64,000 nucleotides of DNA from Akkermansia muciniphila (lineage in GTDB: Bacteria; Verrucomicrobiota; Verrucomicrobiia; Verrucomicrobiales; Akkermansiaceae). The notes beneath the pieces were generated by a model. That model had not been told where the DNA came from, made no database searches, and was given only the letters and a program-made list of their open reading frames with translations. The stretch is taken from NCBI GenBank assembly GCA_945874895.1, contig CAMCIC010000007.1:62001-126000 (forward strand). Reading direction: 5' to 3'. The position numbers were made by a program, and so were the translations under genes. This document shows, piece by piece, positions 35,946 to 41,437 of the stretch (position 1 is the stretch's first letter; each line of letters starts with the position of its first letter).

Positions 35946-36893
35946 TCACTCCTCAATGAACACCTCGATCTGCTGGCCGACGTAAACGCGGAACGAATCC
36001 GGCGGAGCGAAGGAGAAAATGACTTGTAACACACGGGTGTCTACACGTTCGGTGCTGGAACCTGTGAGACTCGTTTTGGGCACCACGTAGGGTTCGATGT
36101 ATTCCAACTTGAGCTCGATGGGCTGATCGCGGTTTCCTTTGATGTGCGCCACGGCCTTCTGACCGCTGCGGATGCGCATGGCGTTTTGCTCGTCCACATC
36201 CACCCGTGCCTGCAAGCGATCGATGCGCCCAAACAAAAGCGCTGGGTTCTTCGGATCGGTTCCGGCCCACTCACCTGCGCGGACATTCAATTGCAGCACC
36301 GTGCCATCGCGCGGCGCAGTGACAGTGTAACGACTGATCAAAAGCTCGACGCTGCGTTTTGCAGCCTCTGCCACCTGCAATTCGGCATGGGATGCGAGCA
36401 ACTGTGACTCCGCGACTTGGAATTGGTCTTTGGCGGTTTGCCATTCCTGCTCAATGATGGCGCGCTTATCTACCACCTTATCGAGGCGGTCGAACACCGA
36501 TCGCGCGGCATCGCGCTGGGATTCCGCCACTTGGACAGCGGCGCGCGCGCGTGCGACCTGCGCCTCTGCGGTGATCCGTTGTGCCTCGATCTCGCGATGA
36601 TCGACGACAAAAAGCACCTCTCCTTTTTTCACCTGTTGCCAGATCTCTACGGCTACTTCTTTGACCTGCCCTACCATCGGTGCCGCGATGATGACGTTTT
36701 CGCCGAAAGACTCCACGATACCGTTTGCCGCGATCATGCGATCGTAGGGGCGAGACGGAGGAGGCTGCGGCGGAGCCGTAGGAATCGCCGACTCCGCAGA
36801 CTTGATCTTGTTGCTGACAAGAAAAATTCCATAAAGGCCTGCAAGGGCGACAACGAATGTCAAATAACGCAAGAAAGTGAGGATGAGTTGCAT
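35946..36893 (-). CDS. HlyD/MacA-type membrane fusion protein of an ABC exporter
   Basis: A 315-residue protein with an N-terminal membrane anchor (LTFLRYLTFVVALAGLYGIF), lipoyl-like half domains, a helical hairpin (about 105-190, rich in Ala, Glu and Gln) and a beta-barrel domain. ANGIVESFGENVIIAAPMVG is the usual first strand of the family. It links an inner-membrane permease to the outer membrane or periplasm. It is the third gene in the permease-ATPase-fusion protein operon, an arrangement resembling DevBCA exporters of cyanobacteria, which export glycolipids. No TolC-like gene is adjacent. Confidence 0.87.
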   Translation of the reverse strand: MQLILTFLRYLTFVVALAGLYGIFLVSNKIKSAESAIPTAPPQPPPSRPYDRMIAANGIVESFGENVIIAAPMVGQVKEVAVEIWQQVKKGEVLFVVDHREIEAQRITAEAQVARARAAVQVAESQRDAARSVFDRLDKVVDKRAIIEQEWQTAKDQFQVAESQLLASHAELQVAEAAKRSVELLISRYTVTAPRDGTVLQLNVRAGEWAGTDPKNPALLFGRIDRLQARVDVDEQNAMRIRSGQKAVAHIKGNRDQPIELKLEYIEPYVVPKTSLTGSSTERVDTRVLQVIFSFAPPDSFRVYVGQQIEVFIEE

Positions 36894-36905
36894 GAGATGA
36901 TGGGG

Positions 36906-37646
36906 TTAACGGTGATGATCAAAATCAAATTCCGCAGTGGGGACGGACTCGAGGATGCGACCATCGTTCATGGTGGCAATACGATCTGAATATTGTAGGA
37001 TGCGGTGATCGTGCGTGACAACGATCGCACAGCGTCCGGGTTGCCTCATGAGGTCGCGAAATAACTCCATCACACGCTGACCGTTCTCGGCATCGAGCGC
37101 GGCGGTCGGTTCATCACAAATGATCAGGCGCGGATTGTGCACGAGGGCACGGGCGATGGCTACACGTTGTTGTTGTCCGCCGGAAAGCTGGTTCGGCCGC
37201 TTTCTCATATGCTCGGAGAGGCCTACCTGCTCTAACGATTTTCTCGCATGCGGCAGCGCTTTCGAGAGACTCATGCCCTGAATGAGCAATGGCACAGCGG
37301 CGTTCTCCTCGCAGGAAATCGTAGGGATCAAATTGAACTGTTGGAAAATGAAACCAACATTCAGCGCCCGAAATCGGGTGATAGCGGATTTTTTCATGCT
37401 GTGCAGCGGTTCGCCCAACACTTGCAGTTCACCCGAATCAGGCGTGAGAGTGCCGGCGAGGATGCTGATGAGCGTCGTTTTGCCGCAACCTGACGGGCCT
37501 AAGAGCATCAGAATTTCCGACTCGTAGGCATCGATGTCAATGCCATGCAAGACCTGAATCTTCGCGTTTCCGGCGCCAAAACTCTTGGTAACGGAACGGG
37601 CACTGGCAGCTAGGACGGGAGAGGACATGAGGGGGAAATCAACCAC
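36906..37646 (-). CDS. ABC transporter ATP-binding protein (MacB/LolD/DevA type)
   Basis: A 246-residue ATPase with Walker [11 protein letters not shown]-loop FQQFNLIPT, signature [15 protein letters not shown], Walker [14 protein letters not shown] and the switch His in VVTHDHR. All catalytic motifs are intact. Sequence and context place it with LolD/MacB/DevA exporters. It overlaps the permease gene by 8 bases at its start and is followed after 12 bases by the fusion protein. Confidence 0.95.
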
Positions 37647-38799
37647 GGAACACTACGGCGGCATCGAGCAAACTGACGCGCAGGATGCCGAGGAACGAAG
37701 CGAGGGAGCAGATCACAACGATCACCCCCAGAACAGCAAAAGGAATCACGTCCGGCATGTAAAAAGGGGGCTGGGTGTTTTTGATCGCTGCTAAACCAAA
37801 CAGGGAAGCCAAAGCCAAGCCGATGCCATATCCCACAAATCCCACCACACTCACCTGCGATAGCAACATCATGCAGAGCTTTGCGTTCGATGCGCCCATC
37901 GCCTTCAGTGCGCCGTAATGCCTCAAATTATCCAACACAAACAAATAAAACGTCTGACAAGAAATGGCGACACCGACGATGAATCCAACCAGCACCGTGG
38001 TTCCGAACGAAATCGGAATCCCTGTGTTTTTCACATACCAGAAAATGGTGGCGGTATTGAATTCGCGATTTGAAGATTGGAAACCGGCATTGGTGTAGGC
38101 TTTTAGACCCGTGTTGGTCTCAATGCCTGCCGCTACCGACTCCGCATCGCGCCCTGGACGGGGTTGCACGAGAATCGCGGAGAGCATTTTGCGTTGCGGT
38201 GGTGAATAGCTGAGAGCCCGCTCGTAAGTGGTCCAGATGAAAGGCCCCCCCGTGAACGATCGCATCGCCTGACAGATTCCCACAATGCGCGCTTCCTGAT
38301 CGTTGATTTCGAAAACATCGCCCATTTTCAAGGGGGTTTTCGGATTGGGAGAAAGCCTCTTGAGTGCGAGGTCATCCACGATCACGGCATTCGGCTGGCG
38401 CAGCGCCTCGATGCTTCCCTCAATCATTCGCTGTGGTGATCCCGCAAAGGTCGTGGAATCAACCCCCAAAAGTTGTACCACCGTGAGACTGCCATTTTCC
38501 AATCGCACGTTTTGCACCCCAGAATACAGAGGCATGGCCCACTCTACCCCATCACAACTCCGCACGCGACCCAGATCGGTATCGCGCATGGCAATGGTCT
38601 GATTGACCTGGCGCACCTCGGTTTCCACCACCCAGATCGGAGCCGGAGCGTTTTTCAGAATTGCCGTGGTCCAGCGCATGAGCCCACAAAACACGGAACT
38701 CTGTTGAGTCATCAAAAATGTCGCGAACATCACCCCGAACACCAGCATCAAGTATTTGGCGGAATCGCCAAAAAGCATTTTCAGGGCAAGGCGGAACAT
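37639..38799 (-). CDS. FtsX/MacB-like permease of an ABC exporter (DevC-like)
   Basis: A 386-residue protein with one N-terminal membrane segment (about 15-35), a periplasmic domain of about 230 residues, and three C-terminal segments typical of FtsX-like permeases (SFGTTVLVGFIVGVAISC, SVVGFVGYGIGLALASLFGL, VIPFAVLGVIVVICSLASF). RHYGALKAMGAS is the coupling-helix motif of the family. DevC relatives have the same topology and gene order. With the ATPase and fusion protein it should export a lipid, peptide or small molecule; the cargo is unknown. Confidence 0.88.
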   Translation of the reverse strand: MFRLALKMLFGDSAKYLMLVFGVMFATFLMTQQSSVFCGLMRWTTAILKNAPAPIWVVETEVRQVNQTIAMRDTDLGRVRSCDGVEWAMPLYSGVQNVRLENGSLTVVQLLGVDSTTFAGSPQRMIEGSIEALRQPNAVIVDDLALKRLSPNPKTPLKMGDVFEINDQEARIVGICQAMRSFTGGPFIWTTYERALSYSPPQRKMLSAILVQPRPGRDAESVAAGIETNTGLKAYTNAGFQSSNREFNTATIFWYVKNTGIPISFGTTVLVGFIVGVAISCQTFYLFVLDNLRHYGALKAMGASNAKLCMMLLSQVSVVGFVGYGIGLALASLFGLAAIKNTQPPFYMPDVIPFAVLGVIVVICSLASFLGILRVSLLDAAVVFRG

Positions 38800-39321: not shown

Positions 39322-40683
39322 TTATTTCGCATCGTCGATTTTTTTGTTCAAATCATCGATGATATCCTTGCGCGCGCCCAGAGATGCCTCCGCATGAGAG
39401 CGATGATACCAGGAAAACATTTCCACTTTTGTATCAGCAACTCCGCGTTGTGCCAGTGATAGCGATTCCGCGAGCAAGCCGCGCCATCTTTTTTTCACAT
39501 CTGCCGCGCTCATGAGAAGTTTTTTGCCATTGCCCTCGGCCTTCCATTTTTCCAAATTCTGCACGATAGATTTTTCTTTATTTTGCTCGAGCACTGACTC
39601 CACGGTCGTGGTGGAACCATGGATCACCGCATCATAGGCAGGCACATTTTCCTTCAACTGAACATTGGCTAAGGCTGAGACGAGACGCGTGGTATCGTCA
39701 AATTCCCGCAGACGCTTTGTCTCGGCGATAAAACTGCCAATTTTCGTTTCCTTCCAAACCAACTCCTGGTTGAGCCTGACGACGAATTGTTGGGGGGTGC
39801 CCGTGTTTGAGTTGTTGCTCTGCCACAGTCCCGTGGGTTTATCGATCACCTTGCCCATAACGCCTAACACTTTTCCAGAAATCGCATGTATCACAGGTCC
39901 GCCGGGCGCGCTTTGTAGGTAAGTATTGTCCAGCAGCAAGGCGGCTCCATCAACGCCTACGACGCCGGCTTTCTCCAAGGCGAGCCCCGATGAATTTTTC
40001 GCCATGCCCAGCGCCAGCACGGAAACGTTAGCAGGAATCTCCTGCCCTGCGGCAACGACTTCCATTTTCTGAGACACATCATCCAAGACCTGCATCCGGG
40101 CGATGTCCACGCCCTCACAAAGCTCTAATGCACCGAATTTTGTCAGCGCCTGACCACCGGACGTGCGGATGGTCAGCTTCTGATTTCCAGAAAGCACACT
40201 GATTGCCGTGTAGAGAAAAACCTTGCCTCCCTGCGCTGCAAGAAAAGCCCCACCGCTGGCATGGTCGCCCTCGATGGATACAAAAGCCTGCTCCACAGAC
40301 TTGCTGATCTGCGGCTCCGATGCGTTGTCTGAGGCTTGATTCGCATCTCCGCTGGGAGTCATCGTCGCGGCAGCCAACTTGGTTTTGAGTTCATCGATTT
40401 GGCGATTCAGGTCCACGATCTGACTCTCCAGAGGCAACAATCGCTGCACTTCTTTTTCGAGTTGATCCTTGCGATCCGTCAGTGCCTTGGCAGCCGCTTC
40501 ATTGAGACCTGCTTGGTTTGCCCTTAGAGATACCACATCTGCTTGCAAACTAATTTTATCACTCTCTAACGAAGCAACCGCAGTTTCCAAATCGGCAATC
40601 TTCTGCTTGTTTTTTTCGTCCTCCTTGCAAGCAGAGAACATCAGGGAAAACAAGGCCATCCAGCACAGGGAAAAAACTTTCAT
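39322..40683 (-). CDS. Lipoprotein with coiled coil and catalytically inactive trypsin-like domain
   Basis: A 453-residue lipoprotein: FSAC lipobox with the lipid Cys at 19, then a coiled coil (about 24-105). A domain with the order of strands of HtrA/trypsin-type proteases follows (about 128-305). The key positions are changed: the His of T-A-x-H-V is Ser162 (YTAISVL), and the Ser of G-x-S-G-G-P is Pro260 (QSAPGGPVI). The Asp in VDIARMQV (193) is kept. It is therefore expected to be a pseudo-protease, perhaps a scaffold or ligand-binding protein. The last 150 residues are helical and not recognised. The start at 40683 is chosen because it begins the lipoprotein signal; an upstream in-frame ATG adds 12 residues. 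Confidence 0.75.
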   Translation of the reverse strand: MKVFSLCWMALFSLMFSACKEDEKNKQKIADLETAVASLESDKISLQADVVSLRANQAGLNEAAAKALTDRKDQLEKEVQRLLPLESQIVDLNRQIDELKTKLAAATMTPSGDANQASDNASEPQISKSVEQAFVSIEGDHASGGAFLAAQGGKVFLYTAISVLSGNQKLTIRTSGGQALTKFGALELCEGVDIARMQVLDDVSQKMEVVAAGQEIPANVSVLALGMAKNSSGLALEKAGVVGVDGAALLLDNTYLQSAPGGPVIHAISGKVLGVMGKVIDKPTGLWQSNNSNTGTPQQFVVRLNQELVWKETKIGSFIAETKRLREFDDTTRLVSALANVQLKENVPAYDAVIHGSTTTVESVLEQNKEKSIVQNLEKWKAEGNGKKLLMSAADVKKRWRGLLAESLSLAQRGVADTKVEMFSWYHRSHAEASLGARKDIIDDLNKKIDDAK

Positions 40684-40810
40684 GCAATCGGTTTGGGTTG
40701 AGAACCATGGATAAGCCATTCGATCGAAACACTCAAGCTGGAAAACATTTCAGCGCAAGCCGCTCGTGGAGAAGTGTTGCAGGAGGATCAAAGGCTGCTA
40801 GCATCACAGT

Positions 40811-41437
40811 ATGAACAAACCCTCGGAGACGGATGCCACGAACCGCATCACCCATGCGATATTGGAACTGATTGGTCGCATCCCAGAAACCCACGAAGTG
40901 CCGGTCGGAGAGACAGAAGCGAGAGCCCGACACATCGCCAACACTGCCGCGGCAAAAGCCGCCACGACGGCGGGTGCCCTGGCCCTCCCGCCAGGTCCCT
41001 TGGGCTGGTTGACCATCATCCCCGAATTGCTTGCAGTTTGGCGCATTCAAGGACAAATGGTGGCGGACCTTGCAGGACTGTATGGAAAGACGGCCTCCCT
41101 CTCACAAAGTCAGATGCTGTATTGCATTTTCCGGCATGGAGCCGCCATGGCCGTTCGTGACCTAGTCATACGCGTGGGAGATCGCTATTTGGTGAAACAA
41201 GCCACACATCAGGCCTTGCAAAAAGCAGCGCAAAAAATCGGCATCAAACTCACCCAAAAAGGAATCGCCCGAGGCATCTCTCGCTGGTTGCCTTTCATCG
41301 GTGCCGTGGGTGTCGGAGGCTACGCCTACTACGATACGGCACAGGTCGCAAAAACCGCCATCGAGATGTTCCAAAAAGACATCGAACACGACGAACCGAC
41401 GATCTTGTCAGCACAGGCGATCGATCTTCCCCCGTGA
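40811..41437 (+). CDS. EcsC-like protein
   Basis: A 208-residue protein with two long hydrophobic stretches: AAKAATTAGALALPPGPLGWLTIIPELLAV (about 47-77) and the glycine-rich PFIGAVGVGGYAYYDT (about 174-189). The P-G-P-L-G-x-x-T and A-V-W-R-I-Q motifs are those of the EcsC family. Known EcsC proteins of Bacillus are linked to ABC transporters and peptide sorting, but in Gram-negative bacteria the role is unknown. It is divergent from the pseudo-trypsin lipoprotein gene and is followed 85 bases later by ribF on the same strand. Confidence 0.75.
   Translation: MNKPSETDATNRITHAILELIGRIPETHEVPVGETEARARHIANTAAAKAATTAGALALPPGPLGWLTIIPELLAVWRIQGQMVADLAGLYGKTASLSQSQMLYCIFRHGAAMAVRDLVIRVGDRYLVKQATHQALQKAAQKIGIKLTQKGIARGISRWLPFIGAVGVGGYAYYDTAQVAKTAIEMFQKDIEHDEPTILSAQAIDLPP

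Follow-up and report, generated by a model that had tools for sequence, protein, structure and literature searches.

The closest known case to the protein described here is MamO, together with the inactive MamE copies of magnetotactic bacteria. According to PMC4794232, MamO, a degenerate trypsin-like protein, promotes the proteolytic activity of MamE and also binds metal; it is encoded in the magnetosome island, carries a C-terminal transporter domain and binds the metal by a di-histidine motif. The same paper describes MamO and the inactive MamE copies as having a Trypsin-2 fold with a degenerate triad and several independent origins, with MamO bearing a non-glycine residue at the oxyanion position. 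A search of open-access literature, covering titles and the first parts of abstracts, returned no description of the present Akkermansiaceae family among the matches listed, and the only bacterial trypsin-fold pseudoproteases among those matches were MamO and the inactive MamE copies.

Gene product and predicted fold

The protein under study is encoded on the minus strand of a 64,000-nucleotide stretch of an Akkermansia muciniphila contig, henceforth referred to as the window. Its features are as follows.

39322-40683, minus strand: lipoprotein open reading frame, 453 amino acids from the MKVFSLC start
40630..40683, minus strand: predicted signal peptide, residues 1-18, ending in FSA before Cys19 (sequence; MSSC or LSSC at the same spot in orthologues)
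40627..40629, minus strand: Cys19, predicted lipidation site, with Lys at +2 (sequence; lipobox scan)
40363..40620, minus strand: N-terminal helical/coiled-coil region, residues 22-107 (AlphaFold helices; weak Pfam hits, mostly of coiled-coil type)
40084..40302, minus strand: N-lobe, the first beta-barrel of the trypsin fold, residues 128-200 (AlphaFold model, PDB comparison, alignment)
40198..40200, minus strand: Ser162 at the catalytic His position (alignment)
40105..40107, minus strand: Asp193, the catalytic Asp, retained (alignment)
39745..40083, minus strand: C-lobe, the second beta-barrel, residues 201-313 (AlphaFold model, alignment, branch lengths)
39904..39912, minus strand: Ser258-Ala259-Pro260 in place of Gly-Asn-Ser, with loss of the oxyanion Gly and the nucleophile Ser (alignment)
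39325..39744, minus strand: C-terminal helical domain, residues 314-453 (AlphaFold of residues 304-453, pLDDT 92)

An alternative reading of the frame from position 40719, giving 465 amino acids, is likewise open. The N-terminus has the pattern of a bacterial lipoprotein (signal peptide, lipobox and Cys), and CKE is conserved throughout the window clade, which consists of the window protein and three same-genus orthologues, four species in all (L001-L004). An earlier reading of this DNA, made from the sequence alone, had proposed a lipid anchor and an N-terminal coiled coil. The predicted anchor is backed by the Cys19 lipobox pattern, seen in the orthologues too, and the coiled coil by the agreement of sequence, orthologues and AlphaFold helices; the outer-membrane location given in that reading is something we only infer.

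The AlphaFold2 model of the window protein (mean pLDDT 79.9) contains helices at residues 3-55 and 62-107, a beta domain at residues 134-313 and a helical C-terminal part at residues 315-452. In the modelled N-terminal helical/coil region pLDDT is mostly 53-77. Residues ~113-315 matched the protease domains of DegS and DegP with a Z of about 18 upon PDB structure comparison, 3k6y (MarP) matched the model with a Z of 17.6, and the top Foldseek match was 7sjy, the RsgI9 S1C-NTF2 ectodomain of Clostridium thermocellum. The model and the PDB comparison together point to the Trypsin-2/S1C double beta-barrel, in agreement with the chymotrypsin/trypsin-like fold predicted by the sequence-only reading.

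Profile searches with family members gave a similar picture. PF13365 (Trypsin_2) was matched by 9 of 15 aligned members, with a best E of 7.5e-19, and NCBIfam NF033740, the MarP serine protease model, was matched by six of the 15, the window protein not among them. The window protein alone gave no Trypsin match in Pfam, even at E up to 0.01; its Pfam and NCBIfam matches were weak coiled-coil and chance matches and were set aside, and weak Pfam matches to S55, S29 and KIF9 were disregarded. A PDB sequence search with the window protein returned chance-level matches only (best, glutathione reductase, E 0.019), and the same query found no relative among the named genome contigs scanned. Two Flavobacterium matches to the same-genus relative L005, covering only 36 residues of the lipobox/coil start, were also set aside.

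Pfam searches with the 15 aligned members matched no PDZ family at E up to 0.01. In the position beyond the protease domain where HtrA/Deg proteins carry one or more PDZ domains, a mostly helical, family-specific C-terminal domain is predicted instead, so the earlier designation "HtrA-type" holds for the fold but not for the architecture. A profile of this domain, built from an alignment of the window protein and 50 of the 59 listed references, matched 55 of 260 Akkermansiaceae genomes in 7 of 16 genera (best 15 candidates per genome). Across the phylum it matched 11 of 387 genomes, ten of them Akkermansiaceae and one, a weak match, from a different family within the order. No convincing structural relative was obtained by PDB sequence search (best E 0.21), by Foldseek (best E also 0.21; the matches listed include ferritin-like proteins and further helical ones) or by VIA-align, and no fold family was assigned. 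BAG domains, which gave the best VIA-align Z of 9.8, were rejected as relatives because this value lies below the level meaningful for helical bundles. A transporter domain was not matched by Pfam in the C-terminal part, which is predicted to be helical and soluble-looking.

Catalytic residues and repeated loss in the family

The triad positions of the window protein align without gaps to those of its relatives (YTAISVLSGN against YTAAHVLSGN; LQSAPGGPV against IQGNSGGPV). Ser162, Asp193 and Pro260 occupy the positions at which relatives carry His, Asp and Ser, which confirms the two substitutions named in the sequence-only reading. The oxyanion-hole Gly is replaced by Ser258, a loss absent from that reading, and the window protein accordingly has neither the complete triad nor the oxyanion Gly of a catalytically active S1 serine protease. 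Identity to the three closest orthologues is 63, 60 and 50%. The window-clade orthologues L002-L004 have triads of S/D/P, S/D/A and S/D/I, such that position 260 reads P, P, A and I across the clade, with Asp kept in all four members. The close orthologues share both losses; the more distant same-genus relatives L005, L007 and L008 still carry the triad letters. The oxyanion Gly is lost in 4 of 4 window-clade members; family-wide, it is kept in 38 of 39 members with the triad (intact) and in 9 of 24 without it (lost).

A 15-member profile matched 247 of 260 Akkermansiaceae genomes (best six candidates per genome), the weaker matches covering the protease domain only and resembling ordinary trypsin-like proteases. 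Among the matches listed, 63 core family members were counted across 53 genomes; the triad is present in 39 of these members and missing from 24. Eight distant rows (L015, L017, L079-L084) were left out of this census. By genome, again among the matches listed and for core rows in draft genomes, 29 hold only intact copies, 18 only lost copies and 6 both, with G143 counted as lost only although it holds the triad-bearing distant row L079. The genomes are mostly drafts, and copy counts, drawn from the best 6 or 15 candidates per genome, are to be read as "at least". Among these matches, the window genome contributes one core copy, of the lost type; a further eight matches to Trypsin_2 in that genome exceed the Pfam cut-off.

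A tree of 71 rows (47 intact, 24 lost) was constructed with the motif columns excluded, after three fragments had been dropped from 74 profile matches. The triad label requires six changes on this tree, six being forced by well-supported branches, with a bootstrap range of 6-7; reading the tree by eye, with regain ruled out, one arrives at seven or eight losses. At least six label changes on a tree free of motif columns imply that catalysis was lost repeatedly in this Akkermansiaceae family. The window clade has support of 100/100, and its neighbours on the tree are L006, in which Ser is lost, and L007, in which the triad letters are kept and the oxyanion Gly is changed to Ser.

A scripted count of core members found the lipobox pattern in 20 of the 39 intact copies and in 20 of the 24 lost ones. 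Assessed by eye, a lipid anchor seemed present in about 22 of 23 assessable lost copies, L054b being doubtful and L073 truncated, and in about 20 of 39 intact copies. Because the pattern follows clades, the difference between lost and intact copies was not treated as an independent test.

Three loci have unusual copy arrangements. Intact and lost copies adjoin on the same strand at L054 (G218:C8:296000-301747), and two adjoining same-strand copies at L058/L043 (G148:C1) both carry the triad. At L078 (G139:C3:489652-494997) a copy is split over two frames, with ORFs of 455 and 194 amino acids, by a frameshift or a sequencing error.

Lobe-specific divergence and the retained function

Branch lengths were fitted on a fixed topology, with motif columns removed, for the N-lobe (residues 128-200), the C-lobe (201-313) and the C-terminal domain (314-452); rows L015, L016, L017 and L078-L084 were left out. 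The ratio of total C-lobe to N-lobe length was 2.23 on 41 dead branches compared to 1.01 on the 78 others, and the ratio of C-terminal to N-lobe length was 1.38 compared to 1.08. For the individual dead lineages the C-lobe/N-lobe ratio was 2.62 (window), 5.73, 1.40, 2.34, 2.10 and 2.04, with the window clade at 2.1-2.8 across fits, and nine intact clades gave 0.68-1.41. A one-sided Mann-Whitney test comparing six dead lineages with 15 intact units, either clades or single rows, gave p values of 0.0004-0.0012 over four settings that varied boundaries, motif exclusion and model, in a comparison of few lineages that was framed after regional identities had been inspected and in which the clade containing the triad-bearing L056 was counted as dead. 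The two groups overlap at intact L007 (3.0-3.6), intact L036 (1.39-2.14) and dead L054b (1.27-2.57).

Residue conservation showed a similar pattern. Lost members kept 13 of the 25 N-lobe columns, 5 of the 31 C-lobe columns and 6 of the 14 C-terminal-domain columns that are at least 80% conserved in intact members (motif columns included), and invariant residues in the four-species window clade number 50 of 73 in the N-lobe and 39 of 113 in the C-lobe. Mean coil identity was 0.48 versus 0.54 for the C-terminal domain in lost pairs (21 of 26 measurable) and 0.26 versus 0.41 in intact pairs (23 of 100 measurable, many intact members having no alignable coil), in a comparison biased towards higher coil identity in lost pairs by matching on residues 128-453, which include the relaxed C-lobe. 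The closest window-clade pair, L002-L003, gave a dN/dS of 0.069 at a dS of 1.27, other clade pairs being near saturation. Three intact pairs gave 0.14-0.22, and two lost pairs elsewhere in the family gave 0.15 and, for L068-L074, 0.47. The parts held by selection are the N-lobe and, to a lesser degree, the C-terminal domain and the coil. The pseudo-protease proposed by the sequence-only reading is supported by the predicted fold, by the same two residues being lost in four species and by purifying selection in the one measurable pair.

The row L007 (G002:C141) combines intact triad letters and a Gly-to-Ser change at the oxyanion position with a C-lobe relaxed like that of dead members. It is a possible intermediate and suggests, as one row, that relaxation of the C-lobe can precede any change in the triad letters.

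Gene neighbourhoods were surveyed at 22 flank loci and the window using mechanically called ORFs. Besides family copies, only two ORF clusters recur in at least three loci (4 of 23 and 3 of 23), and the survey found no partner or conserved operon indicating function, with neighbours shared by pairs of loci only. The shared neighbours near close relatives that were examined with Pfam are housekeeping-type genes. An LpxC/FabA-type gene (93% identical) adjoins both L002 and L006, and a PhoH/PIN gene (93%) adjoins both L002 and L004; this sharing indicates one ancestral locus and names no partner.

Eight neighbours in the window comprise an ABC exporter (three genes), an EcsC-like gene, RibF, a DHQ synthase-like gene, an ECF sigma factor and a DUF1501 gene. 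The exporter genes (HlyD, ABC ATPase and MacB/FtsX permease; 35946-38799, minus strand) lie near the lipoprotein gene on the same strand. In G033 a comparable set of three genes (44-62% identity) is found ~4 kb from L091, an intact relative, and beyond L091 the whole trio was seen in none of the other flank loci among the 22. The divergent neighbour (40811-41437, plus strand) resembles EcsC below the Pfam cut-off (27.3 compared to 30.4 bits).

The window protein is best explained as a lipid-anchored pseudoprotease, most likely a scaffold or adaptor that faces the periplasm and whose N-lobe had its function before catalysis was lost; the probability assigned to this reading is roughly 0.55. The fold, the triad and oxyanion losses (His, Ser and Gly), repeated loss, lobe-specific relaxation and, for one window-clade pair, purifying selection were shown by computation; location, oligomerisation and partner binding are inferences. 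A trypsin-fold lipoprotein incapable of serine-protease chemistry would have been retained for another role: the lipid and coiled coil would hold it on the membrane, probably as an oligomer, and the N-lobe and helical C-terminal domain together would bind a partner. The active ancestor probably had this binding function already, in which case catalysis could be lost again and again without loss of the gene. Among the functions offered by the sequence-only reading, the active-site decoy becomes unlikely given that the C-lobe is relaxed, and a scaffold fits best; the protein may act as a sensor, though a scaffold fits better.

The protein might instead pair with an active trypsin-like protease and activate or restrain it, as MamO does for MamE in PMC4794232, and we consider this rather unlikely. 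It is favoured by the joint presence of intact and lost copies in 6 of 53 genomes among the matches listed, as adjoining genes in G218, and by the eight further Trypsin_2 matches in the window genome, identified by family match and not by triad. However, in 18 of 53 genomes, that of the window among them, the core family is represented by the lost type alone (in drafts, with distant rows outside the count), and outside tandem copies an adjoining gene cluster recurs at 4 of 23 loci at most. When their nucleophile is mutated, HtrA-fold proteases can serve as chaperones, as in DegP, and in the trypsin fold the C-lobe carries the pocket and most substrate loops. A decoy, trap or chaperone binding unfolded chains or peptides uncut in the old active-site cleft would have the DegP-type activity of nucleophile mutants as precedent and would fit the predicted retention of the overall trypsin fold. 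It is nevertheless improbable: the C-lobe, with nucleophile, oxyanion hole and pocket, is the relaxed part (ratio 2.1-2.8 in the window clade) and 26 of its 31 conserved columns are not kept in lost members, which makes binding in the old cleft an unlikely reason for retention.

The retention of Asp193 in 4 of 4 window-clade members would accord with a protein that is still enzymatic, through a different nucleophile or in a non-hydrolytic activity, but with His, Ser and the oxyanion Gly all gone and P, A or I at the nucleophile position in the clade, we give this very little credence. Decay of the gene after the loss of activity might be read from the variation at position 260 (P, P, A, I) and from the dN/dS of 0.47 in the lost pair L068-L074 elsewhere in the family. 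Against this, the frame is open, the three closest orthologues are 63, 60 and 50% identical, the dN/dS of L002-L003 (0.069) is no higher than that of the three intact pairs (0.14-0.22), and 50 of 73 N-lobe residues are invariant in four species. The window gene is not decaying, and that explanation is scarcely credible.

A scaffold or adaptor with an old N-lobe function leads to a wider proposal for the family, which is put forward tentatively. The N-lobe would hold an old non-catalytic function, and proteolysis would have been dropped repeatedly, with at least six label changes, each time freeing the C-lobe while N-lobe, coil and C-terminal domain persisted as a scaffold. If this is true, intact members are bifunctional, and a non-catalytic N-lobe function is predicted in active members too. 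Within this family a single architecture has gone from active to dead many times, and close active relatives are at hand, so that the effect of catalytic loss can be measured lobe by lobe.

Comparison with known systems

Structurally, the likeness to the RsgI9 S1C-NTF2 ectodomain (7sjy) of Clostridium thermocellum consists of the top Foldseek match, while the accessory domain and context differ. DegS, DegP and DegQ of the HtrA group share the protease-domain fold (Z about 18); unlike these, the window protein has lost the triad, has no detected PDZ and carries a helical C-terminal domain and a lipoprotein signal. The likeness to MarP (Rv3671c) lies in the trypsin-like domain, with NF033740 matched by 6 of 15 aligned members and a Z of 17.6 to 3k6y. 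MarP-type proteases are catalytic, in contrast to the window protein with its lost triad, and MarP is anchored by a multi-pass membrane segment, unlike the lipid and coil of the window protein.

The likeness to MamO and MamE, as PMC4794232 describes them, comprises a Trypsin-2 fold with a degenerate triad, repeated loss, and a non-Gly oxyanion position in MamO and in the window clade. The window protein thus has the degenerate triad and non-Gly oxyanion position that define the MamO type in that paper. It has neither the C-terminal transporter domain nor the magnetosome gene context of that type, and differs from MamO in its lipid anchor, coiled coil, C-terminal domain and neighbours. In contrast to the MamO-MamE pairing, an intact core copy of the same family is absent in 18 of 53 genomes among the matches listed, and both types occur in 6 of 53. 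Bacterial trypsin-fold pseudoproteases are already known as a kind, and the window family adds a further case.
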